Shown here: positions 14,547-64,000 of the stretch, one piece after another
How positions within the stretch are numbered: position 1 is the stretch's first letter
How the letters are laid out: the number at the start of each line of letters is the position of its first letter
Origin: Neoarius graeffei
Lineage: Eukaryota; Chordata; Actinopteri; Siluriformes; Ariidae
Assembly (NCBI RefSeq): GCF_027579695.1
Contig: NC_083586.1
Span: 1,317,001-1,381,000 of the forward strand
Direction: 5' to 3'
Length of the DNA: 64,000 bases
The notes under the pieces: model-generated
The model's input: the letters and a program-made list of their open reading frames with translations, nothing else
Told to the model about the DNA's origin: nothing
Database searches by the model: none
Position numbers and translations under genes: made by a program

Positions 14547-15068
<522 letters not shown>

Positions 15069-16808: not shown

Positions 16809-16989
16809 TTTCATAGCTGCACCACGTGATTCGTATTTGGGTGATAGCTGCACAAAGTGAGTCAGGTTAGCTTCATAGCTGCACAAAGTGAGTCATGTTA
16901 GCTTCATGGCTGCACAAAGTGAGTCATGTTAGCTTCATGGCTGCACAAAGTGAGTCATGTTAGCTTCATGGCTGCACAAAGTGAGTCAT

Positions 16990-19240
16990 GTTAGCTTTGT
17001 ACCTGCACAAAGTGAGTCATGTTAGCTTCATGGCTGCACAAAGTGAGTCATGGTAGCTTCATGGCTGCTCAAAGTGAGTAATGTTAGCTTCATACCTGCA
17101 CTAAGTGATTCATGTTAGCTTCATGGCTGCACAAAGTGAGTCCTGCGAGCTTCATAGCTGCACATAGTGATTCATGTTAGCTTTAACGCTGCACAAAGTG
17201 ATTCATGTTTGATTCACGTTAGCTTCATGGCTGCACAAAGTGAGTCATGGTAGCTTCATGGCTGCACAAAGTGAGTCATGTTCGCTTCATGGCTGCACAA
17301 AGTGAGTCCTGCGAGCTTCATGGCTGCACAAAGTGAGTCATGTTAGCTTCATGGCTGCACAAAGTGAGTCATGTTAGCTTCATGGCTGCACAAAGTGAGT
17401 CATGTTAGCTTCGTGGCTGCACAAAATGATTCATGTTAGCTTCATGGCTGCACAAAGTGAGTCATGTTAGCTTCATAGCTGCACAAAGTGATTCATGTTA
17501 GCTTCATGGCTGCACAAAGTGATGCATGTTAGCTTCATAGCTGCACAAAGTGATTCATGTTAGCTTCGTGGCTGCACAAAGTGATTCATGTTAGCTACAT
17601 AGCTGCACAAAGTGATTCATGTTAGCTTCATAGGCTGCACAAAGTGAGTAATGTTAGCTTCATACCTGCACTAAGTGATTCATGTTAGCTTCATGGCTGC
17701 ACAAAGTGAGTCCTGCGAGCTTCATAGCTGCACATAGTGATTCATGTTAGCTTTAACGCTGCACAAAGTGATTCATGTTTGATTCATGTTAGCTTCATGG
17801 CTGCACAAAGTGAGTCATGGTAGCTTCATGGCTGCACAAAGTGAGTCATGTTCGCTTCATGGCTGCACAAAGTGAGTCATGTTCGCTTCATGGCTGCACA
17901 AAGTGAGTCCTGCGAGCTTCATGGCTGCACAAAGTGAGTCATGTTAGCTTCATGGCTGCACAAAGTGAGTCATGTTAGCTTCATGGCTGCACAAAGTGAG
18001 TCATGTTAGCTTCATGGCTGCACAAAGTGAGTCATGTTAGCTTCATAGCTGCACAAAGTGAGTCATGTTAGCTTCATGGCTGCACAAAGTGAGTCATGTT
18101 AGCTTCATGGCTGCACAAAGTGAGTCATGTTAGCTTCATAGCTGCACAAAGTGAGTCATGTTAGCTTCATGGCTGCACAAAGTGAGTCATGTTAGCTTTG
18201 TACCTGCACAAAGTGAGTCATGTTAGCTTCATGGCTGCACAAAGTGAGTCATGGTAGCTTCATGGCTGCTCAAAGTGAGTAATGTTAGCTTCATACCTGC
18301 ACTAAGTGATTCATGTTAGCTTCATGGCTGCACAAAGTGAGTCCTGCGAGCTTCATAGCTGCACATAGTGATTCATGTTAGCTTTAACGCTGCACAAAGT
18401 GATTCATGTTTGATTCACGTTAGCTTCATGGCTGCACAAAGTGAGTCATGGTAGCTTCATGGCTGCACAAAGTGAGTCATGTTCGCTTCATGGCTGCACA
18501 AAGTGAGTCCTGCGAGCTTCATGGCTGCACAAAGTGAGTCATGTTAGCTTCATGGCTGCACAAAGTGAGTCATGTTAGCTTCATGGCTGCACAAAGTGAG
18601 TCATGTTAGCTTCGTGGCTGCACAAAATGATTCATGTTAGCTTCATGGCTGCACAAAGTGAGTCATGTTAGCTTCATAGCTGCACAAAGTGATTCATGTT
18701 AGCTTCATGGCTGCACAAAGTGATTCATGTTAGCTTCATAGCTGCACAAAGTGATTCATGTTAGCTTCGTGGCTGCACAAAGTGATTCATGTTAGCTACA
18801 TAGCTGCACAAAGTGATTCATGTTAGCTTCATAGGCTGCACAAAGTGAGTAATGTTAGCTTCATACCTGCACTAAGTGATTCATGTTAGCTTCATGGCTG
18901 CACAAAGTGAGTCCTGCGAGCTTCATAGCTGCACATAGTGATTCATGTTAGCTTTAACGCTGCACAAAGTGATTCATGTTTGATTCACGTTAGCTTCATG
19001 GCTGCACAAAGTGAGTCATGGTAGCTTCATGGCTGCACAAAGTGAGTCATGTTCGCTTCATGGCTGCACAAAGTGAGTCATGTTCGCTTCATGGCTGCAC
19101 AAAGTGAGTCCTGCGAGCTTCATGGCTGCACAAAGTGAGTCCTGCGAGCTTCATGGCTGCACAAAGTGAGTCATGTTAGCTTCATGGCTGCACAAAGTGA
19201 GTCATGTTAGCTTCATGGCTGCACAAAGTGAGTCATGTTA
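16990..19240 (+). repeat. Higher-order repeat, 1201 bp (570 + 631)
   Basis: Marker variants recur at fixed spacing. TTAGCTTTGTACCTG is at 16,991 and 18,192. The marker GTAATGTTAGCTTCATACCTG, read in pieces, starts at 17,078, 17,648, 18,279 and 18,849. Spacing alternates 570 and 631, giving 1201 bp. This equals 38 units of 31 plus two 11-bp insertions plus 1 base. Copy 2 stops matching near 19,240. Confidence 0.85.
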
Positions 19241-20779
19241 GCTTCGTAGCTGCCCAAAGTGATTCATGTTAGCTTTGTAGCTGCACAAAGTGATTCATGT
19301 TAACTTCATGGCTGCACAAAGTGAGTCTTGTTAGCTTCAACGTTGCACAAAGTGATTCATGTTTGATTCACGTTAGCTTCATGGCTGCACAAAGTGAGTC
19401 ATGGTAGCTTCATGGCTGCACAAAGTGAGTCATGTTCGCTTCATGGCTGCACAAAGTGAGTCATGTTAGCTTCATGGCTGCACAAAGTGAGTCATGTTAG
19501 CTTCATGGCTGCACAAAGAGAGTCATGTTAGCTTCATGGCTGCACAAAGTGATTCATGTTAGCTTCATGGCTGCACAAAGTGATTCATGTTAGCTTCATG
19601 GCTGCACAAAGTGAGTCCTGCGAGCTTCATGGCTGCACAAAGTGAGTCATGTTAGCTTCATGGCTGCACAAAGTGATTCATGTTAGCTTCATGGCTGCAC
19701 AAAGTGATTCATGTTAGCTTCATGGCTGCACAAAGTGATTCATGTTAGCTTCATGGCTGCACAAAGTTACTCATGTTAGCTTCATGGCTGCACAAAGTTA
19801 CTCATGTTAGCTTCATGGCTGCACAAAGTGAGTCATGTTAGCTTCATGGCTGCACAAAGTGATTCATGTTAGCTTCGTGGCTGCACAAAATGATTCATGT
19901 TAGCTTCATGGCTGCACAAAGTGAGTCATGTTAGCTTCGTGGCTGCACAAAATGATTCATGTTAGCTTCGTGGCTGCACAAAGTGATTCATGTTAGCTTC
20001 GTGGCTGCACAAAGTGATTCATGTTAGCTTCATGGCTGCACAAAGTGAGTCCTGCGAGCTTCATGGCTGCACATAGTGATTCATGTTAGCTTCAACGCTG
20101 CACAAAGTGATTCATGTTTGATTCACGTTAGCTTCGTGGCTGCACAAAGTGAGTCATGTTAGCTTCGTGGCTGCACAAAATGATTCATGTTAGCTTCGTG
20201 GCTGCACAAAGTGATTCATGTTAGCTTCATAGCTGCACAAAGTGATTCATGTTAGCTTCATAGCTGCACAAAGTGATTCATGTTAGCTTCATGGCTGCAC
20301 AAAGTGAGTCATGTTAGCTTCATGACTGCACAAAGTGAGTCATGTTAGCTTCATGGCTGCACAAAGTGAGTCATGTTAGCTTCATGGCTGCACAAAGTGA
20401 GTCATGTTAGCTTCGTGGCTGCACAAAGTGAGTCATGTTAGCTTCATAGCTGCACAAAGTGATTCATGTTAGCTTCATAGCTGCACAAAGTGATTCATGT
20501 TAGCTTCATGGCTGCACAAAGTGAGTCATGTTAGCTTCATGACTGCACAAAGTGAGTCATGTTAGCTTCATGGCTGCACAAAGTGAGTCATGTTAGCTTC
20601 GTGGCTGCACAAAATGATTCATGTTAGCTTCATAGCTGCACAAAGTGATTCATGTTAGCTTCATAGCTGCACAAAGTGAGTCATGTTAGCTTCATGACTG
20701 CACAAAGTGAGTCATGTTAGCTTCATGGCTGCACAAAGTGAGTCATGTTAGCTTCGTGGCTGCACAAAATGATTCATGT

Positions 20780-23591
20780 TAGCTTCGTGGCTGCACAAAG
20801 TGAGTCATGTTAGCTTCGTGGCTGCACAAAATGATTCATGTTAGCTTCGTGGCTGCACAAAGTGATTCATGTTAGCTTCATAGCTGCACAAAGTGATTCA
20901 TGTTAGCTTCATGGCTGCACAAAGTGATTCATGTTAGCTTCATAGCTGCACAAAGTGATTCATGTTTGATTCACGTTAGCTTCATGGCTGCACAAAGTGA
21001 GTCATGTTAGCTTCATGGCTGCACAAAGTGAGTCATGTTCGCTTCATGGCTGCACAAAGAGAGTCATGTTAGCTTCATGGCTGCACAAAGTGATTCATGT
21101 TAGCTTCATGGCTGCACAAAGTGATTCATGTTAGCTTCATGGCTGCACAAAGTGAGTCCTGCGAGCTTCATGGCTGCACAAAGTGAGTCATGTTAGCTTC
21201 ATGGCTGCACAAAGTGAGTCATGTTAGCTTCATGGCTGCACAAAGTGTGTCATGTTAGCTTCATGGCTGCACAAAATGAGTCATGTTAGCTTCATGGCTG
21301 CACAAAGTGAGTCATGTTAGCTTCGTGGCTGCACAAAATGATTCATGTTAGCTTCGTGGCTGCACAAAGTGATTCATGTTAGCTTCGTGGCTGCACAAAG
21401 TGATTCATGTTAGCTTCTTGGCTGCACAAAGTGATTCATGTTAGCTTCATGGCTGCACAAAGTGATTCATGTTAGCTTCATAGCTGCACAACATGATTCA
21501 TGTTAGCTTCATGGCTGTACAAAGTGAGTCATGTTAGCTTCATGGCTGCACAAAGTGAGTCATGTTAGCTTCATGGCTGCACAAAGTGATTCATGTTAGC
21601 TTCGTGGCTGCACAAAATGATTCATGTTAGCTTCATGGCTGCACAAAGTGAGTCATGTTAGCTTCGTGGCTGCACAAAATGATTCATGTTAGCTTCGTGG
21701 CTGCACAGAGTGATTTATGTTAGCTTCATAGCTGCACAAAGTGATTCATGTTAGCTTCATGGCTGCACAAAGTGATTCATGATAGCTTCATAGCTGCACA
21801 AAGTGATTCATGTTAGTTTCATGGCTGCACAAAGTGAGTCATGTTAGCTTCATGGCTGCACAAAGTGAGTCATGTTAGCTTCATGGCTGCACAAAGTGAG
21901 TCATGTTAGCTTCATGGCTGCACAAAGAGAGTCATGTTAGCTTCATGGCTGCACAAAGCGATTCATGTTAGCTTCATGGCTGCACAAAGTGATTCATGTT
22001 AGCTTCATGGCTGCACAATGTGTGTCCTGCGAGCTTCATGGCTGCACAAAGTGAGTCATGTTAGCTTCATGGCTGCACAAAATGAGTCATGTTAGCTTCA
22101 TGGCTGCACAAAGTGAGTCATGTTAGCTTCATGGCTGCACAAAGTGAGTCATGTTAGCTTCGTGGCTGCACAAAATGATTCATGTTAGCTTCGTGGCTGC
22201 ACAAAGTGAGTCATGTTAGCTTCGTGGCTGCACAAAATGATTCATGTTAGCTTCGTGGCTGCACAAAGTGATTCATGTTAGCTTCATAGCTGCACAAAGT
22301 GATTCATGTTAGCTTCATGGCTGCACAAAGTGATTCATGTTAGCTTCATAGCTGCACAAAGTGATTCATGTTTGATTCACGTTAGCTTCATGGCTGCACA
22401 AAGTGAGTCATGTTAGCTTCATGGCTGCACAAAGTGAGTCATGTTCGCTTCATGGCTGCACAAAGAGAGTCATGTTACCTTCATGGCTGCACAAAGTGAT
22501 TCATGTTAGCTTCATGGCTGCACAAAGTGATTCATGTTAGCTTCATGGCTGCACAAAGTGAGTCCTGCGAGCTTCATGGCTGCACAAAGTGAGTCATGTT
22601 AGCTTCATGGCTGCACAAAGTGAGTCATGTTAGCTTCATGGCTGCACAAAGTGTGTCATGTTAGCTTCATGGCTGCACAAAATGAGTCATGTTAGCTTCA
22701 TGGCTGCACAAAGTGAGTCATGTTAGCTTCGTGGCTGCACAAAATGATTCATGTTAGCTTCGTGGCTGCACAAAGTGATTCATGTTAGCTTCGTGGCTGC
22801 ACAAAGTGATTCATGTTAGCTTCTTGGCTGCACAAAGTGATTCATGTTAGCTTCATGGCTGCACAAAGTGATTCATGTTAGCTTCATAGCTGCACAACAT
22901 GATTCATGTTAGCTTCATGGCTGTACAAAGTGAGTCATGTTAGCTTCATGGCTGCACAAAGTGAGTCATGTTAGCTTCATGGCTGCACAAAGTGATTCAT
23001 GTTAGCTTCGTGGCTGCACAAAATGATTCATGTTAGCTTCATGGCTGCACAAAGTGAGTCATGTTAGCTTCGTGGCTGCACAAAATGATTCATGTTAGCT
23101 TCGTGGCTGCACAAAGTGATTTATGTTAGCTTCATAGCTGCACAAAGTGATTCATGTTAGCTTCATGGCTGCACAAAGTGATTCATGATAGCTTCATAGC
23201 TGCACAAAGTGATTCATGTTAGCTTCATGGCTGCACAAAGTGAGTCATGTTAGCTTCATGGCTGCACAAAATGAGTCATGTTAGCTTCATGGCTGCACAA
23301 AATGAGTCATGTTAGCTTCATGGCTGCACAAAGTGAGTCATGTTAGCTTCGTGGCTGCACAAAATGATTCATGTTAGCTTCATGGCTGCACAAAGTGAGT
23401 CATGTTAGCTTCGTGGCTGCACAAAATGATTCATGTTAGCTTCGTGGCTGCACAAAGTGATTCATGTTAGCTTCATAGCTGCACAAAGTGATTCATGTTA
23501 GCTTCATGGCTGCACAAAGTGATTCATGTTAGCTTCATAGCTGCACAAAGTGATTCATGTTAGCTTCATGGCTGCACAAAGTGAGTCATGT
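20780..23591 (+). repeat. Higher-order repeat, two tandem copies of 1406 bp
   Basis: GTTTGATTCACG occurs at 20,964 and 22,370, TTCTTGGCTG at 21,415 and 22,821, and CACAACATG at 21,487 and 22,893, all 1406 bp apart. This is 45 units of 31 plus one 11-bp insertion. The hAT element inserted just after the end of copy 2. Confidence 0.85.
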
Positions 23592-23594
23592 TAG

Positions 23595-23602
23595 CTTCAT
23601 GG
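23595..23602. other. hAT target site duplication, left
   Basis: CTTCATGG, part of the satellite unit, is repeated exactly at 27438-27445 on the other side of the element. Removing the element and one copy restores a normal satellite unit. Confidence 0.95.
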
Positions 23603-23767
23603 TAAGGTATTAGGCAGAGACCCGTCCACCCGTAAATTTGACGGGCGATTGCCGATTTCAACGGGCAAGTATACACACAGACGGATACTGAAACGGACGA
23701 TAATGCCGAAAATTTTCGCACATGAATACTCCCACATGTCATCCGATAAATCCAGTTATGTTCCGCC

Positions 23768-24121
23768 CACATACGGACTGGCCATCGGGAGTAGCGGGAG
23801 TTTTCCCGGTGGGCCGGTGGTTCAGTGTGGGCCGGCGTAGGAAAAAAAAAAAAAAAAAACAGTTGCGCGCTGGCCTTTAATATGATAAGCAATGTTAACA
23901 GTTTCTTTAAGAAACTGTTAACATTGTTTATTACAGTTGCGCGCTGGCCTTTAATATGATAAGCAATGTTAACAGTTTCTTAAAGAAACTGTTAACATTG
24001 CTTATCATATTAAAGGCCAGCGCGCAACTGTTTTTTTTTTTTTTTTTCCTCCGCCGGCCCACGCTGAACCACCGGCCCACCGGGAAAACTCCCGCTACTC
24101 CCGATGGCCAGTCCGTGTGTG
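23768..24121. mobile_element. 354-bp fold-back element nested in the hAT
   Basis: Ends CACATACGGACTGGCC (23768-23783) and its inverted copy ending at 24121 (15 of 16 identical) are flanked by the exact 8-bp duplication GTTCCGCC (23760-23767 and 24122-24129). Each arm is a GC-rich block of about 75 bp, then an A (or T) run, then palindromic core sequence, so nearly the whole element folds on itself. It has no coding capacity. The 8-bp duplication suggests mobilisation by a hAT-type transposase, but its ends differ from those of the host hAT, so a different helper is likely. Confidence 0.9.
23860..24030. repeat. Double palindrome core: one partial and one perfect 97-bp copy
   Basis: 23934-24030 is a perfect palindrome with 48-bp arms around a single central A. 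23860-23933 repeats its left half and centre (with a central T) but is truncated after ACATTG on the right. The pair looks like a hairpin that was copied once and partly lost. Confidence 0.9.
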
Positions 24122-24272
24122 GTTCCGCCATCATTTACAAATCGTAAGAAACACAGTTTAATACAAAAAATACTGAAAACTTGAAATGAAAAATCAGAAT
24201 ATTTCATCGCTTCCGCCATTTTGGCCCGCACTGAATCTTGTAACATGCGGACTGAATAAATCGCGAATTCTG

Positions 24273-24354
24273 ATTGGTCGAAAATTGCCAAACACCCTGC
24301 GTTGTAGTTTCCTCTTTCTTGGCGGGAGAACTGCATTTTTTTTTTGCTGACTCA
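24273..24354 (+). promoter_or_regulatory. Possible promoter elements of the hAT transposase
   Basis: A reversed CCAAT (24273-24277), an E2F-like TTGGCGGGA (24319-24327) and an AP-1 core TGACTCA (24348-24354) lie within 100 bases upstream of the likely start codon at 24370. These are motif matches only. Confidence 0.4.
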
Positions 24355-24369
24355 CTCTTCTGGATCAAG

Positions 24370-26914
24370 ATGAATCCCAACAAACGCCCCAAATTGAATG
24401 TTACAAAAATTGATTCGTTTTTCCACAAAAAGACAGAAAAGGTATGTGTGATACATTGATTAACAAGGGGGTTTCATGGGGGTATGTGGCTGTATTCCTG
24501 AGAATACAATAACATAGGACTCAAAGTATTCACCTGGAAAATGAGGTGCAGTTTTCAAATATCTGTAGGCCCTAACAGTACAACATTTGATATTTCAGAA
24601 AACTGCAGAACCATCAGTCCCAAATAGTAATGCAGGTGTTACAGCACATTTGGCCTTGGATACTGATGGAGGTGGTGGAGAAGTACAGGCATGCCATTCT
24701 AAAGACTCAACACCAATTGAAACAGACATACTACCAGATATACCAATAGCTCATAAGTTCGCAGCTAATCAGTCATCAGCTACATGTATGGAAGCTGTGC
24801 TTGAGGAACAGCAGGTAGATCCTGCTATCACCTGTGTGTCTTCATCTGGAATTGACACTGAAATACACACTGCTCCTGTTAAAACTACAAAACCCAAGAC
24901 AGCCAAAGTTTATGCTAAAAAGTTTCAGGATTCTTGGTGCACAACATTTCCATGGGTGAAACATGATATGTCATCTGATGTCATGTTCTGTACAATTTGT
25001 CGACAGTGCAAGAATGATACAGTTCTGAGCTCTGGAACACAAAATTATAGGATCAAGACCCTTGAGGACCATGCCAAGAGTAAAGGTCATTTGGCTGCAG
25101 TGGCAGCTGCAGATCCTAAACAAGGCCAAGTGTTGGTGGGATTCAGTAAAGCCGCACAGACCAGGAAAGCTGCAGTCATATTAGCTCTAAAAACAGTGCA
25201 CTGGTTGTCGGTTGAAGAAATAGCTAATAAGAAATATAGTAGTCTTCTCCACTTCCTTCGTGACATTGATGTGAAAGATGCAGTTCATCTTCAGAAAGGT
25301 GCGAATGCTACCCATGATAGCCCAGATATATTTAACCAGCTTCTTGAATGCCTCAACTTTGTCCTAGAAAGAAATCTCAAGACCGATCTCAGAAAATCAC
25401 CATTTGTGGGCATTGGAGTTGATGAGAGCACTGATCGAGCACAAGAAAAGCATGTGGTGATTGTTGTTCGGTATATTCAAAAGCAGTCAGCTACACCAAA
25501 GACCACATTTTTATCTTGCGTTTCTGTACGTGATGGAACAGCTGCCACTGTACTGGAAGCAATTAGAACCAGCCTAAACCACTTTGGAGTGCCAATTAGG
25601 AAAGTTGTTGGCCTGGGTACGGATGGAGCAAGCTCCATGGCTAGTTCTCAGAATGGTCTCAATGGGCTTATGAAAAACCTCAACCCCTTCACAGTACATG
25701 TGCACTGTGTCTGCCATAGATTGGCATTGTCAGTGAGTCAGGCATGTAAGGATATTCAGCTGGCACAGGCTGTTACCACTATGATATCCACAGTTTATAC
25801 GTATATCCAACTTTCCCCTAATCGTCTAGAAAGATTTAAGGATGTTGCAGCAATACTTGAGAGTGACACAGTGAAATTTCGGCGTCTCTTTGAGATAAGG
25901 TGGTTATGTCTTGGTGAGGCAGTTGTTGCACTGATCCGCAACTATGAGCCCCTAATGATCATGGTTGGCCAACATGCTGCTGAAGGTGATCTGACAGCAG
26001 CCAGTATTGAAAACCACATGTCTCAGTACAAATTTGTTGCAATGTTAAATTTGCTGGCAGACATTTTGGCTGCCACAAATCACCTCAGTAAACTATTCCA
26101 ATACCAAGATGTGTCATTTGGGTCCATCAGGACAAATCTCCAAAACTGCCTCACAATATTAGAGGACTATCAGGCCAATGATGGTGTTTATATGCATCAG
26201 ATGGAAGACATGCTTCATGAACACGGCTCGTACAAGGGTCAGGTACTGTCAGAAGCACCAGGAAGGGGCGAGAGGCAAGACCAGAGGGAAACTTTCATAG
26301 CAGCAAGGACTCAGATACTTGAAAACCTCCTTGCAAACATCAGGCAAAGGTTTCCTCGTGTGGATCTGCTGGATGCCATGCAAATCTTTGACCCCAGTGC
26401 CTATCCCATCGAAGTAGGCCTTCCTCTATGGGGCATTAACCATCTTGAAACCCTCCTGGCCCATTATGGTGCACATCATGACAACAGAGAGGGGGAAAGG
26501 TTTGCTGCTCTTGTTGATGCTGACCAGGCAAGAGGAGAATTTCTTGTCTTCAAGCGACTAGTATACCAGAACAGGTTCTCAACAGATGGTGATGATGAAT
26601 GGCAGGAAGAGGGTCATTTTGCAAGACCAACTCAGCTCATGAAGAAGATATTTGGAGGTCCAAACATGCCAAATCAGCGGCTCTATCCAAGCATGTTTCA
26701 CCTCATGTCAATGGCAATATGTGTGCTTGTTGGCAATGCAGAGGCTGAGCGAGTCTTTTCTGTTCAGAACAGGATCAAAACCAAGTTGAGAACAAAATTA
26801 AGTATAGTTAGGCTGGAGCAGCTTATCAGACAAAGCTACGAAAAGTTAGATCGTCAGGAATTTGACTTTGATGCAGCAGCAGACCGATTCTTGCAGGCCC
26901 CTAGACGTCTGTAA
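24370..26914 (+). CDS. hAT transposase (ZNF862-like), two exons
   Basis: Exon 1 is 24370-24441 (24 codons, containing TKIDSFFHKK). A 157-bp intron (24442 GTATGT to TTTCAG 24598) joins it in phase to exon 2, 24599-26914, giving about 795 residues. The order is a TTF/BED-like zinc finger at about 133-190 (W, FPW, MFCTICRQC, then H-x-KSKGH) and an RNase H-like core with GIGVDEST (D299), GLGTDGASS (D366) and VHCVCHRLAL (C394, H397). The hAT C-terminal dimerisation region follows, with GNAEAERVFS (E741) and KTKLRTKLS. All three acidic residues are present and the frame is open. The protein would cut and rejoin the element ends in the nucleus. A simple start at 24587 inside the intron is possible but less likely. 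ATTAAA at 27072 may be its poly(A) signal. Confidence 0.92.
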
Positions 26915-27071
26915 TCTTTGTGTAAACCAAAGAAACTCAGTTCCCGTTCTTTCAAAGTTAATTTTCATTTTTGAGTAGTTTGGTCAAAATATTATGGATG
27001 ACAGTCAGTGACAGACATTCTGCGATTTAATTTGTGCCACGTAAAATAGAATACTGTTGGTTTTTTTTTTT

Positions 27072-27077
27072 ATTAAA
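27072..27077 (+). terminator. Possible poly(A) signal of the transposase gene
   Basis: ATTAAA follows a T run about 158 bases after the transposase stop. It is the nearest good hexamer. Confidence 0.4.
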
Positions 27078-27300
27078 TACTGTAACTAGATCAAAAGATT
27101 ATATACAATTCATTGTTGTTTATTTTCTTTTCACTTTTGTTACCAAATCAAACACCATACATACATCTGATACATTCAGGAGTGAAACTGAAAAAAAATA
27201 CAAAGTAAAAATATGCAATATTTCTGATCAAAAATTACACGCCATTTCACCCTGAAAATGTCCTAGAATGCAGGAAATGAAGTCTAAATTTCAAAAATTT

Positions 27301-27372
27301 TCTGGGGGGGCATGCCCCCAGACCCCCCTAGAGGGACTTCACGCCTGCGGCGCTCGTCTTCACGCCTGCGGC
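27301..27372. repeat. hAT 3' subterminal palindrome and direct repeats
   Basis: TCTGGGGGGGCATG followed by CCCCCAGA (27301-27322) is a near-perfect G/C palindrome. CTTCACGCCTGCGGC is directly repeated at 27337-27351 and 27358-27372. Short repeats of this kind near hAT ends usually serve as transposase binding sites; that role is inferred. Confidence 0.6.
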
Positions 27373-28840
27373 AGTCATCAGGATTATATAAAATATTATT
27401 TTTGACTGGTAATTTTCTTTTTCTGCCTAATACCCTACTTCATGGCTGCACAAAATGAGTCATGTTAGCTTCATGGCTGCACAAAGTGAGTCATGTTAGC
27501 TTCGTGGCTGCACAGAATGATTCATGTTAGCTTCGTGGCTGCACAAAGTGAGTCATGTTAGCGTCGTGGCTGCACAAAATGATTCATGTTAGCGTCGTGG
27601 CTGCACAAAATGATTCATGTTAGCTTCGTGGCTGCACAAAGTGATTCATGTTAGCTTCATAGCTGCACAAAGTGATTCCTGTTAGCTTCATGGCTGCACA
27701 AAGTGATTCATGTTAGCTTCACAGCTGCACAAAGTGATTCATGTTAGCTTCGTAGCTGCACAAAGTGATTTCATGTTAGCTTCATAAGCTGCACAAAGTG
27801 ATTTATGTTAGCTACATAGCTGCACAAAGTGTTAGCTTCATAGGCTGCACAAAGTGAGTCATGTTAGCTTCATTATTGCTCAAAGTGAGTAATGTTAGCT
27901 TCATAGCTGCACTAAGTAATTCATGTTAGCTTCATGGCTGCACAAAGTGAGTCCTGCGAGCTTCATAGCTGCACATAGTGATTCATGTTAGCTTCAACGC
28001 TGCACAAAGTGATTCATGTTTGATTCACGTTAGCTTCATGGCTGCACAAAGTGAGTCATGGTAGCTTCATGGCTGCACAAAGTGAGTCATGGTAGCTTCA
28101 TGGCTGCACAAAGTGAGTCATGTTCGCTTCATGGCTGCACAAAGTGAGTCATGTTAGCTTCATGGCTGTACAAAGAGAGTCATGTTAGCTTCATGGCTGC
28201 ACAAAGTGATTCATGTTAGCTTCATGGCTGCACAAAGTGATTCATGTTAGCTTCATGGCTGCACAAAGTGATTCCTGCGAGCTTCATGGCTGCACAAAGT
28301 GAGTCATGTTAGCTTCATGGCTGCACAAAGTGAGTCATGTTAGCTTCATGGCTGCACAAAGTGAGTCATGTTAGCTTCATGGCTGCACAAAGTGAGTCAT
28401 GTTAGCTTCATGGCTGCACAAAGTGAGTCATGTTCGCTTCATGGCTGCACAAAGTGAGTCATGTTAGCTTCATGGCTGCTCAAAGTGAGTCATGTTAGCT
28501 TCATGGCTGCATAAAGAGACTCATGTTAGCTTCATGGCTGCACAAAGTGTGTCATGTTAGCTTCATGGCTGCACAAAATGAGTCATGTTAGCTTCATGGC
28601 TGCACAAAGTGAGTCATGTTAGCTTCGTGGCTGCACAAAGTGATTCATGTTAGCTTCATAGCTGCACAAAGTGAGTCCTGCGAGCTTCATGGCTGCACAA
28701 AGTGAGTCATTTTAGCTTCATGGCTGCACAAAGTGAGTCAGGTTAGCTTCATGGCTGCACAAAGTGAGTCCTGTTAGCTTCATGGCTGCACAAAATGAGT
28801 CATGTTAGCTGCATGGCTGCACAAAGTGAGTCATGTTAGC

Positions 28841-39400: not shown

Positions 39401-39944
39401 ACAAAGTGATTTATGTTAGCTTCATAGCTGCACAAAGTGATTCATGTTAGCTTCATAGCTGCACAAAGTGATTCATGTTAGCTTCATGGATGCACAAAGT
39501 GAGTCATGTTAGCTTCATGGCTGCACAAAATGAGTCATGTTAGCTTCATGGCTGCACAAAGTGAGTCATGTTAGCTTCGTGGCTGCACAAAATGATTCAT
39601 GTTAGCTTCATGGCTGCACAAAGTGAGTCATGTTAGCTTCGTGGCTGCACAAAATGATTCATGTTAGCTTCGTGGCTGCACAAAGTGATTCATGTTAGCT
39701 TCATAGCTGCACAAAGTGATTCATGTTAGCTTCATGGCTGCACAAAGTGATTCATGTTAGCTTCATAGCTGCACAAAGTGATTCATGTTAGCTTCATGGC
39801 TGCACAAAGTGAGTCATGTTAGCTTCATGGCTGCACAAAATGAGTCATGTTCGCTTCATGGCTGCACAAAGTGAGTCATGTTAGCTTCGTGGCAGCACAG
39901 AATGATTCATGTTAGCTTCGTGGCTCACAAAGTGAGTCATGTTA

Positions 39945-46600: not shown

Positions 46601-48010
46601 GCTGCACAAAGTGATTCATGTTAGCTTCACAGATGCACAAAGTGATTCATGTTAGCTTCATGGCTGCACAAAGTGAGTCATGTTAGCTTCATGGCTGCAC
46701 AAAGTGAGTCATGTTAGCTTCATGGCTGCACAAAGTGATTCATGTTAGCTTCATGGCTGCACAAAGTGAGTCATGTTAGCTACTTGTCTGTAGGTATTGA
46801 GTCATGTTAGCTTTATGGCTGCACAAAGTGAGTCATGTTAGCTTCACAGATGCACAAAGTGATTAATGTAAGCTTCATGGCTGCACAAAGAGAGTCATGT
46901 TAGCTTCATGGCTGCACAAAGTGAGTCTTGTTAGCTTCATGGCTGCACAAAGTGAGTCATGTTAGCTTCATGGCTGCACAAAGTGAGTCATGTTAACTTC
47001 ATGGCTGCACAAAGTGATTCATGTTAACTTCATGGCTGCACAAAGTGATTCGTATTATCTTCATGGCTGCACAAAGTGATTCGTGTTGGCTTCATGGCTG
47101 CACAAAGTGAGTCATGTTAGCTTAATCGCTGCACAAAGTGAGTCATGTTAGCTTCATTATTGCACAAAGTGAGTCATGTTAGCTTCATAGCTGCACAAAG
47201 TGATTCCTGTTAGCTTCATAGCTGCACAAAGTGATTCATGTTAGCTTCATAGCTGCACAAAGTGATTCATGTTTGATTCACGTTAGCTACATAGCTGCAC
47301 AAAGTGATTAACGTTAGCTGCATAGCTGCACAAAGTGATTCATGTTATCTTCATGGCTGCACAAAGTGATTCATGTCAGCTTCATGGCTGCACAATGTGA
47401 GTCATGTTAGCTTCATGGCTGCACAAAGTGAGTCATGTTAGCTTTATGGCTGCACAAAGTGAGTCATGTTAGCTTCATGGCTGCACAAAGTGAGTCATGT
47501 TAGCTTCTTTGATGCACAAAGTGAGTCATGTTAGGTTCATAGATGCACAAAGTGATTCATGTTAGCTTCATCGCTGCACACAGTGATTCATGTTGGCTTC
47601 ATGGCTGCACAAAGTGATTCATGTTAGCTTCAACGCTGCACAAAGTGATTCATGTTTGATTCACGTTAGCTTCATGGCTGCACAAAGTGAGTCATGTTAG
47701 CTTCTTGGCTACACAAAGTGAGTCATGTTAGCTTCATGGCTGCAGAAATTGATTCATGTTAGCTTCATGGCTGCACAAAGTGAGTCATGTTAGCTTCATG
47801 GCTGCACAAAGTGAGTCATGTTAGCTTCGTGGCTGCACAAAATGATTCATGTTAGCTTCGTGGCTGCACAAAGTGATTCATGTTAGCTTCATAGCTGCAC
47901 AAAGTGATTCATGTTAGCTTCGTAGCTGCACAAAGTGATTTCATGTTAGCTTCATAAGCTGCACAAAGTGATTCATGTTAGCTTCATAGCTGCACAAAGT
48001 GATTCATGTT
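43690..48010 (+). repeat. Higher-order repeat, two copies of about 2.24 kb
   Basis: TACTTGTCTGTAGGTATTG occurs at 44,545 and 46,781, and TAGGTTCATAGATGC at 45,296 and 47,532, 2236 bp apart. At the left end the spacing is 2205 (GTTCGC at 43,691 and 45,896), one unit less. Unit forms with CTGTAGGTA are the most divergent seen in the array. Confidence 0.82.
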
Positions 48011-53399: not shown

Positions 53400-56300
53400 T
53401 GCGCAAAGTGAGTCATGTTAGCTTCATGGCTGCACAAAGTGATTCGTGTTACCTTCATGGCTGCACAAAGTGAGTCATGTTAGCTTCATGGCTGCGCAAA
53501 GTGAGTCGTGTTAGCTTCATGGCTGCGCAAAGTGAGTCGTGTTAGCTTCATGGCTCCGCAAAGTTAGTCATGTTAGCTTCATGATTGCACAAGTGAGTCA
53601 TGTTAGCTTCATTGCTGCACAAAGTGATTCGTGTTAGCTTCATGGCTGCAAAAAGTGACTCATGTTAGCTTCATGGCTGCGCAAAGTGAATCATGTTAGC
53701 TTCATGGCTGCACAAAGTGAGTCATGTTAGCTTCATGATTGCCCAAGTGAGTCATGTTAGCTTCATAGCTGCACAAAGTGATTCATGTTAACTTCATGGC
53801 TGCGCAAAGTGAGTCATGTTAGCTTCATGGCTGCACAAAGTGATTCGTGTTACCTTCATGGCTGCACAAAGTGAGTCATGTTAGCTTCATGGCTGCGCAA
53901 AGTGAGTCGTGTTAGCTTCATGGCTGCGCAAAGTGAGTCGTGTTAGCTTCATGGCTCCGCAAAGTTAGTCATGTTAGCTTCATGATTGCACAAGTGAGTC
54001 ATGTTAGCTTCATTGCTGCACAAAGTGATTCGTGTTAGCTTCATGGCTGCAAAAAGTGACTCATGTTAGCTTCATGGCTGCGCAAAGTGAATCATGTTAG
54101 CTTCATGGCTGCACAAAGTGAGTCATGTTAGCTTCATGATTGCCCAAGTGAGTCATGTTAGCTTCATAGCTGCACAAAGTGATTCATGTTAACTTCATGG
54201 CTGCACAAAGTGATTCATGTTAGCTTCATGGCTGCACAAAGAGATTCGTGTTAGCTTCATGGCTGCACAAAGTGATTCATGTTAGCTTCATAGCTGCACA
54301 AAGTGAGTCCTACAAGCTTCATAGCTGCACAAAGTGATTCATGTTAGCTTCATGGCTGCACAAAGTGAGTCATGTTAGCTTCATGGCTGCACAAAGTGAG
54401 TCATGTTAGCTTCATGGCTGCACAAAGTGAGTCATGTTAGCTTCATGGATGCACAAAGTGATTCGTGTTAGCTTCATGGCTGCACAAAGTGAGTCATGTT
54501 AGCTTAATCGCTGCACAAAGTGAGTCATGTTTGCTTCAAAGATGCACAAAGTGATTCATGTTAGCTTCATAAGCTGCACAAAGTGATTCATGTTAGCTTC
54601 ATGGCTGCACAAAGTGAGTCATGTTAGCTTCCTGGCTGCACAAAGTGATTCATGTTAGCTTCATGGCTGCACAAATTGAGTCATGTTAGCTTCATGGCTG
54701 CACAAAGTGAGTAATGTTAGCTTCATGATTGCCCAAGTGAGTCATTTTAGCTTCATAGCTGCACAAAGTGATTCATGTTAACTTCATGGCTGCACAAAGT
54801 GATTCATGTTAACTTCATGGCTGCACAAAGTGATTCATGTTAGCTTCATGGCTGCACAAAGAGATTCGTGTTAGCTTCATGGCTGCACAATGTGATTCAT
54901 GTTAGCTTCATAGCTGCACAACGTGAGTCCTACAAGCTTCATAGCTGCACAAAGTGATTCATGTTAGCTTCATGGCTGCACAAAGTGAGTCATGTTAGCT
55001 TCAAGGCTGCACACAGTGAGTCATGTTAGCTTCATTGCTGCACAAAGTGAGTCATGTTAGCTTCATGGCTGCTCAAAGTGAGTCATGTTAGCTTCATGGC
55101 TGCACAAAGTGAGTCATGTTAGCTTCATGGCTGCGCAAAGTGAGTCATGTTAGCTTCATGGCTGCACAAAGTGAGTCATGTTAGCTTCATGGCTGCACAA
55201 AGTGATTCATGTTAACTTCATGGCTGCACAAAGTGATTCATGTTAACTTCATGGCTGCACAAAGTGATTCATGTTAACTTCATGGCTGCACAAAGTGATT
55301 CATGTTAACTTCATGGCTGCACAAAGTGATTCGTGTTATCTTCATGGATGCACAAAGTGATTCGTGTTAGCTTCATGGCTGCACAAAGTGAGTCATGTTA
55401 GCTTAATCGCTGCACAAAGTGAGTCATGTTTGCTTCAAAGATGCACAAAGTGATTCATGTTAGCTTCATAAGCTGCACAAAGTGATTCATGTTAGCTTCA
55501 TGGCTGCACAAAGTGAGTCATGTTAGCTTCATGGCTGCACAAAGTGATTCATGTTAGCTTCATGTCTGCACAAAGTGATTCATGTTAGCTTCATGGCTGC
55601 ACAAATTGAGTCATGTTAGCTTCATGGCTGCACAAAGTGAGTCATGTTAGCTTCATGGCTACACAAAGTGAGTCATTTTAGCTTCATGGCTGCACAAAGT
55701 GATGCATGTTAGCTTCATGGCTGCACAAAGTGATTCATGTTTGTTTCATGTTAGCTTCGTAGGTGCACAAAGTGATTCATGTTTGTTTCATGTTAGCTTC
55801 ATGGCTGAACAGAGTGATTCATGTTCGGTTCATGATTGCACAAAGAGATTCATGTTAGCTTGATAGCTGAACAAAATCATTCCTGTTAGCTTCATAGCTG
55901 CACAAAGTGATTCATGTTAGCTTCATAGCTGCACAATGTGATTCATTTTTGATTCACGTTAGCTACATAACTGCACAAAGTGATTCATGTTAGCTTCATG
56001 GCTGCACAAAGTGAGTCATGTTAGCTTCATGGCTGCACAAAGTGAGTCATGTTACCTTCATAGCTGCACAAAGTGATTCATGTTAACTTCATGGCTGCAC
56101 AAAGTGATTCGTGTTATCTTCATGGATGCACAAAGTGATTCGTTTTAGCTTCATGGCTGCACAAAGTGAGTCATGTTAGCTTAATCGCTGCACAAAGTGA
56201 GTCATGTTTGCTTCAAAGATGCACAAAGTGATTCATGTTAGCTTCATAAGCTGCACAAAGTGATTCATGTTAGCTTCATGGCTGCACAAAGTGAGTCATG

Positions 56301-59300
56301 TTAGCTTCATGGCTGCACAAAGTGAGTCAAGTTTGCTTCATGGCTGCACAAAATGATTCATGTTATCTTCATGGCTGCACAAAGTGATTCATGTTAACTT
56401 CATGGCTGCACAAAGTGATTCATGTTAGCTTCATGGCTGCACAAAGTGATTCGTGTTAGCTTCATGGCTGCAAAAAGTGAGTCATGTTAGCGTCATGGCT
56501 GCGTAAATTGAGTCATGTTAGCTTGATGGCTGCGCAAGGTGAGTCATGTTAGCTTCATGATTGCACAAGTGAGTCATGTTAGCTTCATCGCTGCACAAAG
56601 TGATTCATGTTATCTTCATGGCCGCACAAACTGATTCATGTTAACTTCATGGCTGCACAAAGTGATTCATGTTAGCTTCATGGCTGCACAAAGTGATTCG
56701 TGTTAGCTTCATGGCTGCACAAAGTGAGTCATGTTAGCGTCATGGCTGCGCAAAGTGAGTCATGTTAGCTTCATGGCTGCTCAAATTGAGTCATGTTAGC
56801 TTCATAGCTGCACAAAGTGATTCATGTTAGCTTCATAGCTGCACAAAGTGATTCATTTTTGATTCACGTTAGCTACATAGCTGCACAAAGTGATTCATGT
56901 TAGCTTCATGGCTGCACAAAGTGATTCGTGTTAGCTTCATGGCTGCACAAAGTGAGTCATGTTAGCTTCATGGCTGCGCAAAGTTAGTCATGTTAGCTTC
57001 ATGATTGCACAAGTGAGTCATGTTAGCTTCATTGCTGCACAAAGTGTTTCATGTTAGCTTCATGGCTGCACAAAGTGAGTCATGTTAGCTTCTTGTCTGT
57101 AGGTAGTGAGTCATGTTAGCTTTATGGCTGCACAAAGTGAGTAATGTTAGCTTCACAGATGCACAAAGTGATTCATGTAAGCTTCATGGCTGCACAAAGT
57201 GAGTCGTGTTAGCTTCATGGCTGCGCAAAGTGAGTCATGTTAGCTTCATGGCTGCACAAAGTGATTCGTGTTACCTTCATGGCTGCACAAAGTGAGTCAT
57301 GTTAGCTTCATGGCTGCGCAAAGTGAGTCGTGTTAGCTTCATGGCTGCGCAAAGTGAGTCGTGTTAGCTTCATGGCCCCGCAAAGTTAGTCATGTTAGCT
57401 TCATGATTGCACAAGTGAGTCATGTTAGCTTCATTGCTGCACAAAGTGATTCGTGTTAGCTTCATGGCTGCAAAAAGTGACTCATGTTAGCTTCATGGCT
57501 GCGCAAAGTGAATCATGTTAGCTTCATGGCTGCACAAAGTGAGTCATGTTAGCTTCATGATTGCCCAAGTGAGTCATGTTAGCTTCATAGCTGCACAAAG
57601 TGATTCATGTTAACTTCATGGCTGCACAAAGTGATTCATGTTAGCTTCATGGCTGCACAAAGAGATTCGTGTTAGCTTCATGGCTGCACAAAGTGATTCA
57701 TGTTAGCTTCATAGCTGCACAAAGTGAGTCCTACAAGCTTCATAGCTGCACAAAGTGATTCATGTTAGCTTCATGGCTGGACAAAGTGAGTCATGTTAGC
57801 TTCATGGCTGCACAAAGTGAGTCATGTTAGCTTCATGGCTGCACAAAGTGAGTCATGTTAGCTTCATGGCTGCACAAAGTGAGTCATGTTAGCTTCATGG
57901 CTGCGCAAAGTGAGTCATGTTAGCTTCATGGCTGCGCAAAGTGAGTCATGTTAGCTCAATGGCTGCACAAAGTGAGTCATGTTAGCTTCATGGCTGCACA
58001 AAGTGAGTCATGTTAGCTTCATGGCTGCACAAAGTGAGTCATGTTAACTTCATGGCTGCACAAAGTGATTCATGTTAACTTCATGGCTGCACAAAGTGAT
58101 TCGTGTTATCTTCATGGATGCACAAAGTGATTCGTTTTAGCTTCATGGCTGCACAAAGTGAGTCATGTTAGCTTAATCGCTGCACAAAGTGAGTCATGTT
58201 TGCTTCAAAGATGCACAAAGTGATTCATGTTAGCTTCATAAGCTGCACAAAGTGATTCATGTTAGCTTCATGGCTGCACAAAGTGAGTCATGTTAGCTTC
58301 ATGGCTGCACAAAGTGATTCATGTTAGCTTCATGGCTGCACAAATTGAGTCATGTTAGCTTCATGGCTGCACAAAGTGAGTAATGTTAGCTTCATGATTG
58401 CCCAAGTGAGTCATTTTAGCTTCATAGCTGCACAAAGTGATTCATGTTAACTTCATGGCTGCACAAAGTGATTCATGTTAACTTCATGGCTGCACAAAGT
58501 GATTCATGTTAGCTTCATGGCTGCACAAAGAGATTCGTGTTAGCTTCATGGCTGCACAATGTGATTCATGTTAGCTTCATAGCTGCACAACGTGAGTCCT
58601 ACAAGCTTCATAGCTGCACAAAGTGATTCATGTTAGCTTCATGGCTGCACAAAGTGAGTCATGTTAGCTTCAAGGCTGCACACAGTGAGTCATGTTAGCT
58701 TCATTGCTGCACAAAGTGAGTCATGTTAGCTTCATGGCTGCACAAAGTGAGTCATGTTAGCTTCATGGCTGCGCAAAGTGAGTCATGTTAGCTTCATGGC
58801 TGCTCAAAGTGAGTCATGTTAGCTTCATGGCTGCACAAAGTGAGTCATGTTAGCTTCATGGCTGCGCAAAGTGAGTCATGTTAGCTTCATGGCTGCACAA
58901 AGTGAGTCATGTTAGCTTCATGGCTGCACAAAGTGATTCATGTTAACTTCATGGCTGCACAAAGTGATTCATGTTAACTTCATGGCTGCACAAAGTGATT
59001 CATGTTAACTTCATGGCTGCACAAAGTGATTCATGTTAACTTCATGGCTGCACAAAGTGATTCATGTTAACTTCATGGCTGCACAAAGTGATTCGTATTA
59101 TCTTCATGGATGCACAAAGTGATTCGTGTTAGCTTCATGGCTGCACAAAGTGAGTCATGTTAGCTTAATCGCTGCACAAAGTGAGTCATGTTTGCTTCAA
59201 AGATGCACAAAGTGATTCATGTTAGCTTCATAAGCTGCACAAAGTGATTCATGTTAGCTTCATGGCTGCACAAAGTGAGTCATGTTAGCTTCATGGCTGC

Positions 59301-60100
59301 ACAAAGTGATTCATGTTAGCTTCATGTCTGCACAAAGTGATTCATGTTAGCTTCATGGCTGCACAAATTGAGTCATGTTAGCTTCATGGCTGCACAAAGT
59401 CAGTCATGTTAGCTTCATGGCTGCACAAAGTGAGTCATGTTAGCTTCATGGCTACACAAAGTGAGTCATTTTAGCTTCATGGCTGCACAAAGTGATGCAT
59501 GTTAGCTTCATGGCTGCACAAAGTGATTCATGTTTGTTTCATGTTAGCTTCGTAGGTGCACAAAGTGATTCATGTTTGTTTCATGTTAGCTTCATGGCTG
59601 AACAGAGTGATTCATGTTCGGTTCATGATTGCACAAAGAGATTCATGTTAGCTTGATAGCTGAACAAAATCATTCCTGTTAGCTTCATAGCTGCACAAAG
59701 TGATTCATGTTAGCTTCATAGCTGCACAATGTGATTCATTTTTTAATTCACGTTAGCTACATAACTGCACAAAGTGATTCATGTTAGCTTCATGGCTGCA
59801 CAAAGTGAGTCATGTTAGCTTCATGGCTGCACAAAGTGAGTCATGTTACCTTCATAGCTGCACAAAGTGATTCATGTTAGCTTCATGGCTGCACAAAGTG
59901 AGTCAAGTTTGCTTCATGGCTGCACAAAGTGAGTCATGTTAGCTTCATGATTGCACAAGTGAGTCATGTTAGCTTCATGGCTGCTCAAATTGAGTCATGT
60001 TAGCTTCATAGCTGCACAAAGTGATTCATGTTAGCTTCATAGCTGCACAAAGTGATTCATTTTTGATTCACGTTAGCTACATAGCTGCACAAAGTGATTC
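53400..60100 (+). repeat. Higher-order repeat, two copies of 3.4-3.8 kb, with a 401-bp inner duplication
   Basis: The marker GCAAAGTTAGTCATG (53,559, 53,960 and 57,380 region) shows 401-bp and then 3.42-kb spacing. CCTACAAGCTTC occurs near 54,309, 54,929, 57,730 and 58,598. GTTTGTTTCATG occurs near 55,740 and 59,533 (3.79 kb). The growth in spacing from 3.42 to 3.79 kb equals 12 extra units in copy 2. Confidence 0.75.
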
Positions 60101-61679
60101 ATGTTAGCTTCATGGCTGCACAAAGTGATTCGTGTTAGCTTCATGGCTGCACAAAGTGAGTCATGTTAGCTTCATGGCTGCGCAAAGTTAGTCATGTTTG
60201 ATTCACGTTAGCTTCATGGCTGCACAAAGTGAGTCATGTTAGCTTCATGGCTGCACAAAGTGAGTCATGTCAGCTTCGTGATTGCACAAAGTGATTCATG
60301 TAAGCTTCATGGCTGCACAAAGTGATTCATGTTAGCTTCATAGATGCACAAAGTGATTCATGTTAGCTTCATTGCTGCACAAAGTGAGTCATGTTAGCTT
60401 CATCGCTGCACAAAGTGAGTCATGTTAGCTTCGTAGCTGCCCAAAGTGATTCATGTTAGCTTCGTAGCTGCCCAAAGTGATTCATGTTACCTTCGTAGCT
60501 GCCCAAAGTGATTCATGTTAGCTTCATGATTGCAAAAGTGATTCATGTTAGCTTCTTGGCTGCACAAAGTGAGTCATGTTAGCTTCATGGCTGCACAAAT
60601 TGAGTCATGTTAGCTTCATGGCTGCACAAAGTGAGTCATGTTAGCTTCATGGCTGCACAAAATGATTCCTGTTAGCTTCATGGCTGCACAAAGTGAGTCA
60701 TGTTAGCTTCATGGCTGCACAAATTGAGTCATGTTAGCTTCATGGCTGCACAAAGTGAGTCATGTTAGCTTCATGGCTGCACAAAATGATTCCTGTTAGC
60801 TTCATGGCTGCACAAATTGAGTCATGTTATCTTCATGGCTGCACAAAGTGAGTCATGTTAGCTTCATGGCTGCACAAAATGATTCCTGTTAGCTTCATGG
60901 CTGCACAAAGTGAGTCATGTTAGCTTCATAGCTGCACAAAGTGATTCGTGTTAGCTTCATAGCTGCTCAAAGTGAGTCATGTTAGCTTCATGGCTGCACA
61001 AACTGATTCATGTTATCTTCATGGCTGCACTAACTGAGTCGGGTAAACTTCACGGCTGCACAAAGTGAGTCATGTTAGCTTCATAGCTGCACAAAGTGAT
61101 TCCTGTTAGCTTCATGGCTTCATGGCTGCACAAAGTGAGTCGAGTTAGCTTCATGGCTGCACAAAGTGAGTCATGTTAGCTTCATGGCTGCACACAATGA
61201 TTCCTGTTAGCTTCATGGCTGCACAAAGTGAGTCATGTTAGCTTCATAGCTGCTCAAAGTGAGTCATGTTAGCTTCATGGCTGCACAAACTGATTCATGT
61301 TAGCTTCATAGCTGCACAAAGTGAGTCATGTTAGCTTCATGGCTGCACTAAGTGAGTCGTGTAAACTTCATGGCTGCACAAAGTGAGTCATGTTAGCTTC
61401 ATGTCTGCACAAAGTGATTCATGTTAGCTTCATGGCTGCACAAAGTGAGTCATGTTAGCTTCTTGATTGCACAAAGTGAGTCATGTTAGCTTCATAGCTG
61501 CACAAAGTGATGCATGTTAAATTCATGGCTGCACAAAGTGATTCATGTTACCTTCATGGCTGCACTAAGTGAGTCATGTTAGCTTCATGGCTGCACTAAG
61601 TGAGTCATGTTAGCTTCATGGCTGCACAAAGTTAGTCATGTTAGCTTCATGGTTGCACAAATTGAGTCATGTTAGCTTC

Positions 61680-63760
61680 ATGGCTGCACAAAGTGAGTCA
61701 TGTTAGCTTCATGGCTGCACAAAATGATTTCTGTTCGCTTAATGGCTGCACAAAATGATTCCTGTTAGCTTCATGGCTGCACAAAGTGAGTCATGTTAGC
61801 TTCATGGCTCCACAAATTGAGTCATGTTAGCTTCATTGCTGCACAAATTGAGTCATGTTAGCTTCATGGCTGCACAAAGTGAGTCATGTTAGCTTCATGG
61901 CTGCACAAAATGATTCCTGTTAGCTTCATGGCTGCACAAAGTGAGTCATGTTAGCTTCATGGCTGCACAAATTGAGTCATGTTAGCTTCATGGCTGCACA
62001 AAGTGAGTCATGTTAGCTTCATGGCTGCACAAAATGATTCCTGTTAGCTTCATGGCTGCACAAATTGAGTCATGTTATCTTCATGGCTGCACAAAGTGAG
62101 TCATGTTAGCTTCATGGCTGCACAAAATGATTCCTGTTAGCTTCATGGCTGCACAAAGTGAGTCATGTTTGCTTCATGGCTGCACAAAGTGAGTAGTGTA
62201 AACTTCATGTCTGCACAAAGTGAGTCATGTTAGCTTCATAGCTGCACAAAGTGATTCGTGTTAGCTTCATAGCTGCTCAAAGTGAGTCATGTTAGCTTCA
62301 TGGCTGCACAAACTGATTCATGTTATCTTCATGGCTGCACTAAGTGAGTCGTGTAAACTTCACGGCTGCACAAAGTGAGTCATGTTAGCTTCATAGCTGC
62401 ACAAAGTGATTCATGTTAGCTTCATAGCTGCACAAAGTGATTCATGTTAGCTTCATAGCTGCACAAAGTGATTCATGTTAGCTTCATAGCTGCCCAAAGT
62501 GATTCATCTTAGCTTTGTAGCTGCACAAAGTGATTCATGTTAGCTTCGTAGCTGCACAAAGTGATTCATGTTAGCTTCGTAGCTGCACAAAGTGAATCAT
62601 GTTAGCTTCGTAGCTGCACAAAGTGATTCATGTTAGCTTCAAAGCTGCACAAAATGATTCATGTTTGATTCATGTTAGATTCATAGCTGCACAAAGTGAT
62701 TCATGTTAGCTTCATGACTGCCCAAAGTGATTCATGTTAGCTTCGTAGCTGCCCAAAGTGATTCATGTTAGCTTCGTAGCTGCACAAAGTGATTCATGTT
62801 AACATCATGGCTGCACAAAGTGAGTAATGTTAGCTTCAAGGCTGCACAAAGTGAGTCACGTTAGCTTCATGATTGCACAAAGTGAGTCATGTTAGCTTCA
62901 TGATTGCACAAAGTGAGTCATGTTAGCTTCATCACTGTACAAATTGAGTCATGTTAGCTTCATGGCTGCACAAAATGATTCCTGTTAGCTTCATGGCTGC
63001 ACAAAGTGAGTCATGTTAGCTTCATCACTGTACAAATTGAGTCATGTTAGCTTTATGGCTGCACAAAGTGAGTCATGTTAGCTTCATGGCTGCACAAAAT
63101 GATTTCTGTTCGCTTCATGGCTGCACAAAATGATTCCTGTTAGCTTCATGGCTCCACAAATTGAGTCATGTTAGCTTCATGGCTGCACAAATTGAGTCAT
63201 GTTAGCTTCATGGCTGCACAAAGTGAGTCATGTTACCTTCATGGCTGCACAAAATGATTCCTGTTAGCTTCATGGCTGCACAAAGTGAGTCATGTTAGCT
63301 TCATGGCTGCACAAAGTGAGTCATGTTAGCTTCATGGCTGCACAAAATGATTCCTGTTAGCTTCATGGCTGCACAAATTGAGTCATGTTATCTTCATGGC
63401 TGCACAAAGTGAGTCATGTTAGCTTCATGGCTGCACAAAATGATTCCTGTTAGCTTCATGGCTGCACAAAGTGAGTCATGTTTGCTTCATGGCTGCACAA
63501 AGTGAGTAGTGTAAACTTCATGTCTGCACAAAGTGAGTCATGTTAGCTTCATAGCTGCACAAAGTGATTCGTGTTAGCTTCATAGCTGCTCAAAGTGAGT
63601 CATGTTAGCTTCATGGCTGCACAAACTGATTCATGTTAGCTTCATAGCTGCACAAAGTGAGTCATGTTATCTTCATGGCTGCACTAAGTGAGTCGTGTAA
63701 ACTTCACGGCTGCACAAAGTGAGTCATGTTAGCTTCATAGCTGCACAAAGTGATTCATGT
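61680..63760 (+). repeat. Higher-order repeat of about 1.3-1.4 kb
   Basis: AAAATGATTTCTGTTCGCTT at 61,721-61,726 matches the copy at 63,096 (about 1375 bp). GAGTAGTGTAAACTTCATG is at 62,191 and 63,504 (1313 bp), and GTGTAAACTTCACGG at 62,351 and 63,695 (1344 bp). The differences are whole numbers of units. Confidence 0.7.
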
Positions 63761-64000
63761 TAGCTTCATAGCTGCACAAAGTGATTCATGTTACCTTCAT
63801 GGCTGCACTAAGTGAGTCATGTTAGCTTAATGGCTGCACAAAGTAAATCATGTTAGCTTCATGGCTGCACAAAGTGAGTCATGTTAGCTTCATGGCTGCA
63901 CAAAGTGAGTCATGTTAGCTTCATGGCTGCACAAATTGAGTCATGTTAGCTTCATGGCTGCACAAATTGAGTCATGTTAGCTTCATGGCTGCACAGAGTG

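Follow-up and report, generated by a model that had tools for sequence, protein, structure and literature searches.

The main replication-dependent histone loci of the catfish Neoarius graeffei appear to include, as a linked component, a satellite with a unit of 31 bp, which occupies the spacer 5′ of H1, often between two clusters in mirror image, both H1 genes being directed away from the repeat. We consider it highly probable that this repeat is a spacer satellite linked to histone genes, which segmental duplication and unequal exchange would have dispersed; as a structure, the histone-linked spacer satellite is well supported. Its position and polarity, the mirror pairs of clusters and the one common junction can be read directly in the assembly (2.34 Gb, 38 contigs), and the units listed in our searches lie almost entirely on three contigs that bear histone clusters, C17, C18 and C20. 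The point of departure is a stretch of 64,000 nucleotides of C18, here called the window, whose coordinates are used below unless a contig is named.

A satellite array beside a histone gene cluster

A single array, with a period of 31 and multiples thereof, was delineated by TRF at 16847-64000. Scanning the window for the unit core CTGCACAAAGTGA, with at most two substitutions allowed, gave 1,347 sites on the forward strand and none on the reverse strand, the leftmost at 16817, and the spacing between cores is exactly 31 in 1,244 of the 1,346 intervals. The single orientation reported in the earlier note thus holds throughout the window, and its figure of at least 43 kb is correct for the satellite alone: the repeat stretch in the window covers about 47.2 kb, of which 3.8 kb belong to an inserted hAT-type transposon that the note did not describe. 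The array, which had been seen to run out of the window, was traced on to C18:1,393,414, where it ends, the full stretch amounting to about 59.6 kb with the insert. Long head-to-tail arrays of one unit (here 47.2 kb in the window and 59.6 kb in total) are a mark of satellite DNA, and so are arrays found at several places with a common consensus, as is the case for eight arrays of this repeat, which show few column changes.

Two subfamilies can be distinguished, identical at 13 of the first 14 unit positions: A, GCTGCACAAAGTGAGTCATGTTAGCTTCATG, composes the window array, while B, GCTGCGCAAAGTGATAATTTTTAGGGTTATA, adjoins H1 at most other loci. The unit had not been recognised as a named satellite, and its letters occur in no satellite paper of the literature searched: only the 13-mer CTGCACAAAGTGA was matched, in papers with titles unrelated to satellites. 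No description of the satellite, or of a link between it and histone genes, was found in the titles and abstract openings listed from that literature, and the exact unit is present neither in viral contigs nor in a prokaryote genome collection.

The histone cluster to the left of the array comprises five genes, recognised as open reading frames (H1 also by Pfam Linker_histone), each followed by a 3′ stem-loop found with Rfam (Histone3): H4 (11514-11825, forward strand, stem-loop 11852-11897), H2B (12457-12831, forward, 12864-12908), H3 (13568-13978, reverse, 13500-13545), H2A (14547-14930, reverse, 14473-14518) and H1 (15409-16014, reverse, 15331-15377). Since all five carry the histone stem-loop, the cluster is of the replication-dependent type, as had been proposed. 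Transcription of H1, whose protein has 97% identity to an H1 of Neoarius graeffei, leads away from the array. Upstream of the H1 start codon comes a non-repetitive block (16015-16766, reverse strand), common to H1 loci on C17, C18 and C20 when 16015-16860 is compared by blastn with 21 other H1 upstream stretches. Alignment then places the array edge at 16767-16846 (forward strand), with a remnant of B, an inversion junction and the first, degenerate A units. Subfamily A follows on the forward strand, as located by TRF and the core scan, in a first part at 16847-23602 and a second at 27438-64000, which continues to C18:1,393,414. Some 0.8 kb separate the start of the array from the H1 start codon, on the upstream side of the gene, and the closeness to H1 pointed out in the earlier note is borne out. 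Farther left, the window contains fragments of a LINE reverse transcriptase in two frames (RVT_1, 3321-4887) and a tRNA match at 2437-2508.

What the earlier note had missed is that the array is flanked by mirror-image clusters, and that its edge recurs elsewhere. Past the array end, 1393.4-1401.9 kb of C18 are mostly other DNA; there follow a short array (C18 1401863-1402491) and an H1 gene on the forward strand from 1403281. Window 4865-16767 aligns, inverted, with the cluster to which this gene belongs, in nine pieces of together about 10.2 kb and 82-98% identity, a count that excludes a same-orientation piece at 1840-2164. The array is therefore the spacer between two H1 genes pointing away from it. 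The excluded piece, which recurs at two places of the C20 start, has the look of a dispersed repeat. In the mirror cluster, at C18 1404.3-1406.9 kb, H2A is frameshifted, occupying two frames, and about 1.2 kb separate the parts of a split H3; H1, H2B and H4 read through, and the window cluster is intact.

Distribution and polarity in the genome

Counts of one exact 28-mer taken from the unit came to 2,770 + 1,674 over the whole genome, the reversed control giving 0 + 0, and 668 of the forward occurrences fall in C18 1297001-1481000. Among the 28-mer places listed, seemingly in contig order, only two, on C9, come before C17, and all listed matches of searches with the A unit (327 matches, 40 of 105 candidates scored) and the B unit (181 matches, 40 of 192 candidates scored) are on C17, C18 and C20. 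Grouping these listed matches into blocks reveals a marked polarity. Leaving the window array aside, nine of the ten A blocks lie on the H1 side of an H1 gene, no more than 40 kb from it, and none on the opposite side; blocks placed at random over the first 7.65 Mb of these contigs fell there in 0.36 of 10 cases on average, and 0 of 20,000 placements were as high. With A and B taken together, again among the matches listed, the nearest cluster within 60 kb presents its H1 side to 23 of the 27 blocks and its H4 side to two, the last two having no cluster; these blocks were merged by hand, once across about 16 kb, and the 35 clusters, broken ones included, were likewise compiled by hand.

The same picture emerges from the spacers, 11 of the 12 that face H1 containing units as compared with none of the four that face H4 (Fisher p 0.003); blocks and clusters are related by duplication, and the p-values therefore overstate their independence. 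Of 18 pairs of neighbouring clusters at most 120 kb apart, 16 are in inverted arrangement. This association of the repeat with histone clusters extends over the first 7.7 Mb of C17, C18 and C20. Exceptions are found: units at C17 5.29 Mb and C20 12.34 Mb have no H1, H2A, H2B or H3 match nearby, the blocks at C18 45 kb and C18 6.673 Mb are on the H4 side of the nearest cluster, and C9 has a fragment of about three units. Units can therefore occur apart from histone genes.

Five H3 matches, at C17 997 kb, C17 1383 kb, C18 5940 kb, C20 217 kb and C20 553 kb, have a common internal stop; they cover residues 26 or 31 to 136 at 86-89%, and four of them are without H1 alongside, among the matches listed. 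The common stop suggests one broken H3 that was copied along with its cluster.

Units upstream of H1 genes and a common junction

The 2.5 kb upstream of 22 H1 genes were surveyed, the two of the window locus and 20 fetched from among 48 H1 matches (19 on C17, C18 and C20, and one of the four on C23); the set does not include the second of the matches at C18 94 kb, the divergent H1 matches of C17 6.6-7.6 Mb or any from other contigs. In the classified scan at least three units are found within this distance at 16 of the 21 H1 loci on C17, C18 and C20, and none at the other five, at two of which a looser scan picked up one core. The number of units near H1 ranges from three to more than 50. The nearest unit is at -754 to -832 from the H1 start codon at 14 of the 16 unit-bearing loci; subfamily B has the H1-sense orientation at 14 of the 16. 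Stretches of 10 or more A units run antisense to H1 at five loci and in the sense direction at one. The C23 locus surveyed, with a promoter 77% similar, has no units in its 2.5 kb upstream. Four of the five empty loci have in common a different sequence upstream of about -560, which is probably an insertion. At C20 2.1024 Mb and C18 5.8230 Mb the orientation switches within the array, a few forward units being directly followed by reverse ones.

It is worth emphasizing that one and the same edge junction is found at four loci: in the window, at C17 1.04 Mb, at C17 1.44 Mb and at C20 3.55 Mb. In alignment, the succession of H1 upstream block, B or a remnant of B, and antisense A corresponds at almost every base among these loci, which belong to three chromosomes and are told apart by private unit insertions. 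This argues for descent from one arrangement, makes independent insertions beside each H1 an unfavoured account, and speaks against an assembly join. Two other ideas were abandoned: the state of the array does not mark a promoter clade, as loci do not group by array state on a promoter tree that is poorly resolved and whose bootstrap had not settled, and a 42-bp form cannot serve as a marker of all arrays, the patterns that contain it (p1, p2, p4) being absent from five other array stretches.

Alternative explanations

The earlier note had worried that the neighbourhood might be an artefact, the array and the histone cluster having been wrongly joined. Long tandem arrays often break assemblies, and a false inverted join could yield a mirror pair; yet three contigs carry the junction, at four loci that show private differences, the arms of the mirror pair diverge by 2-18%, there is no N in the window, and fNeoGra1 is reported as a VGP assembly built on HiFi reads, optical maps and Hi-C (PMC11579386). 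The worry is largely answered by the common junction, and we regard such an artefact as extremely improbable. The same note had asked whether the array is pericentromeric, in which case histone genes and satellite would be neighbours only because both reside in the centromere-near chromatin of three chromosomes. Part of this stands. At least the first 10 kb of C17 and of C18 consist of a 293-bp satellite, about 34 copies on each and 83% alike, which is not in the first 10 kb of C20; telomere repeats are at the far ends of C18 and C20 and not at that of C17. Among the matches listed, with 10 of 634 candidates scored, further copies of the 293-bp unit are at C19 0.11 Mb, and others lie within C22 (17.25-17.31 Mb). 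The window, 1.3 Mb from the satellite end of C18, the other end of which is telomeric, is thus probably centromere-near, and some blocks of the 31-bp unit are without histone genes. The 31-bp unit is a different repeat, which follows histone clusters on three contigs: no array of it is present in the first 10 kb of C17 and C18, and among the matches listed it does not have the spread over most or all chromosomes expected of a centromeric satellite. It is not the likely centromeric satellite, for which the 293-bp repeat is a fair candidate, and a better one. Nor would mere cohabitation lead one to expect nine of ten listed A blocks on the H1 side within 40 kb, as against 0.36 at random and 0 of 20,000 placements as high, or a one-sidedness of 23 to 2, a fixed distance to H1 and a common junction. 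This explanation is already disfavoured, and we hold it to be very unlikely.

Function offers another way to account for the fixed position. The units might act as an enhancer, a boundary or a platform for protein binding, either for the H1 promoter or for the histone locus body, for instance by way of AP-1-like TGAGTCA sites. Such a role would agree with the H1-sense orientation of B at 14 of 16 unit-bearing loci, about 0.8 kb before the start codon, with the 817 TGAGTCA motifs of the window array and its extension (C18 1333.8-1393.4 kb), and with the near-identity of A and B over their first 14 positions, of which 13 agree. Yet the share of units bearing TGASTCA varies from 0.03 to 0.48 across eight arrays, so that the AP-1 idea was set aside as unproven; the copy number near H1 goes from three to more than 50, with five of 21 loci having none within 2.5 kb, and a common origin explains the fixed position without function. 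A regulatory array is in our opinion quite unlikely. A broader version is also unlikely, in which the satellite contributes to the working of the histone locus, keeping mirror clusters apart and promoting exchange between them or organising the histone locus body, with H1-proximal B as a boundary or promoter element; were this true, it would represent a repeat-spacer architecture of which no description was found for a vertebrate histone locus in the literature searched.

Growth and spread of the array

We are led back to the histone-linked spacer satellite. Exact recurring 300-mers cover 57% of the 59.6-kb stretch, the hAT insert included, and the longest exact copy (among those of at least 800 bp) measures 2,617 bp and lies 3,806 bp from its counterpart; unit variants are private to individual arrays. 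Private variants and long exact copies would follow from local unequal exchange or slippage, and arrays may have grown by these processes in blocks of up to a few kb. Segmental duplication and ectopic exchange would have produced further copies of the clusters together with the array edge, both inside single centromere-near regions of C17, C18 and C20 and from one such region to another. Behind H1 promoters, the array would be tolerated because no histone transcript must cross the DNA there. It may in turn aid sequence exchange between inverted clusters, any selected role being putative. Counted against this scenario are two blocks free of clusters, two on the H4 side, the C9 fragment, the five of 21 H1 loci without array within 2.5 kb in the classified scan, and the promoter tree, with its lack of grouping by array state.

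Relation to known systems

Newts offer the obvious comparison. In the work of Stephenson, Erba, Diaz, Gall and colleagues (1981-86), satellite 1 of Notophthalmus is said to lie between histone clusters; the 1981 literature reportedly has satellite tracts separating newt histone clusters, with a unit said to be of 222 bp. The newt satellite is reported to be present at centromeres as well. In both animals histone clusters sit within long tandem satellite arrays, and the satellite is part of the locus architecture: as in the newt, satellite tracts are found between clusters in the catfish, in 11 of 12 H1-facing spacers, that of the window measuring 59.6 kb. The catfish unit differs by its length, 31 bp as against the 222 bp reported for the newt, and its array faces the H1 5′ ends of mirror-image clusters. 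The case is comparable, and would be of the same kind with another unit and another geometry. On newt lampbrush chromosomes, according to a review that cites papers on histone loci, satellite transcripts are read-through from upstream genes (PMC5615363). With H1 5′ ends turned towards the catfish array, read-through from gene ends would not apply on the H1 side, and transcription would reach the array only by running upstream from H1 promoters.

Centromeric and pericentromeric satellites resemble the catfish array in being long and homogeneous, with variants private to arrays, in a region that is here probably centromere-near. They differ in that the listed catfish units are, with few exceptions, confined to three contigs and to one side of a single gene family, and the better centromere candidate of this fish has a different, 293-bp unit. 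Ribosomal RNA gene units, for their part, carry spacer subrepeats, which are short and tandem, travel with multicopy genes and vary in number. The catfish repeats are likewise short, tandem, located in the spacer of a multicopy gene family and moving with its genes; unlike rRNA genes, the clusters form dispersed pairs and not a head-to-tail gene array, and an enhancer or terminator role of the repeat is only putative. What the catfish provides, with its sequence known, is a satellite that is bound to a single gene family and keeps the same side, distance and orientation at many loci. Questions that become testable with it are how satellites move together with gene clusters, whether sequence passes between inverted clusters on either side of a satellite (concerted evolution), and whether histone locus bodies respond to spacer repeats, as was already asked in work on newt lampbrush chromosomes.

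A transposon within the array

The insert that interrupts the window array, at 23603-27437 (forward strand), was recognised by its ends, an open joined frame and Pfam matches in its second exon. It is bounded by a perfect 8-bp target duplication, CTTCATGG (23595-23602 and 27438-27445), and its terminal inverted repeats, TAAGGTATTAGGCAG and TAGGGTATTAGGCAG, match each other; an 8-bp duplication with matching terminal repeats is what characterizes hAT elements. Two transposase exons, 24370-24441 and 24599-26914, give a stop-free frame when joined without one intron, and the only Pfam matches of the second are zf-C17orf113 and DUF4371, which we take to be linked to hAT proteins. The element is complete-looking, and it looks young because its ends are near-identical, its target duplication is perfect and its transposase frame is without stops.
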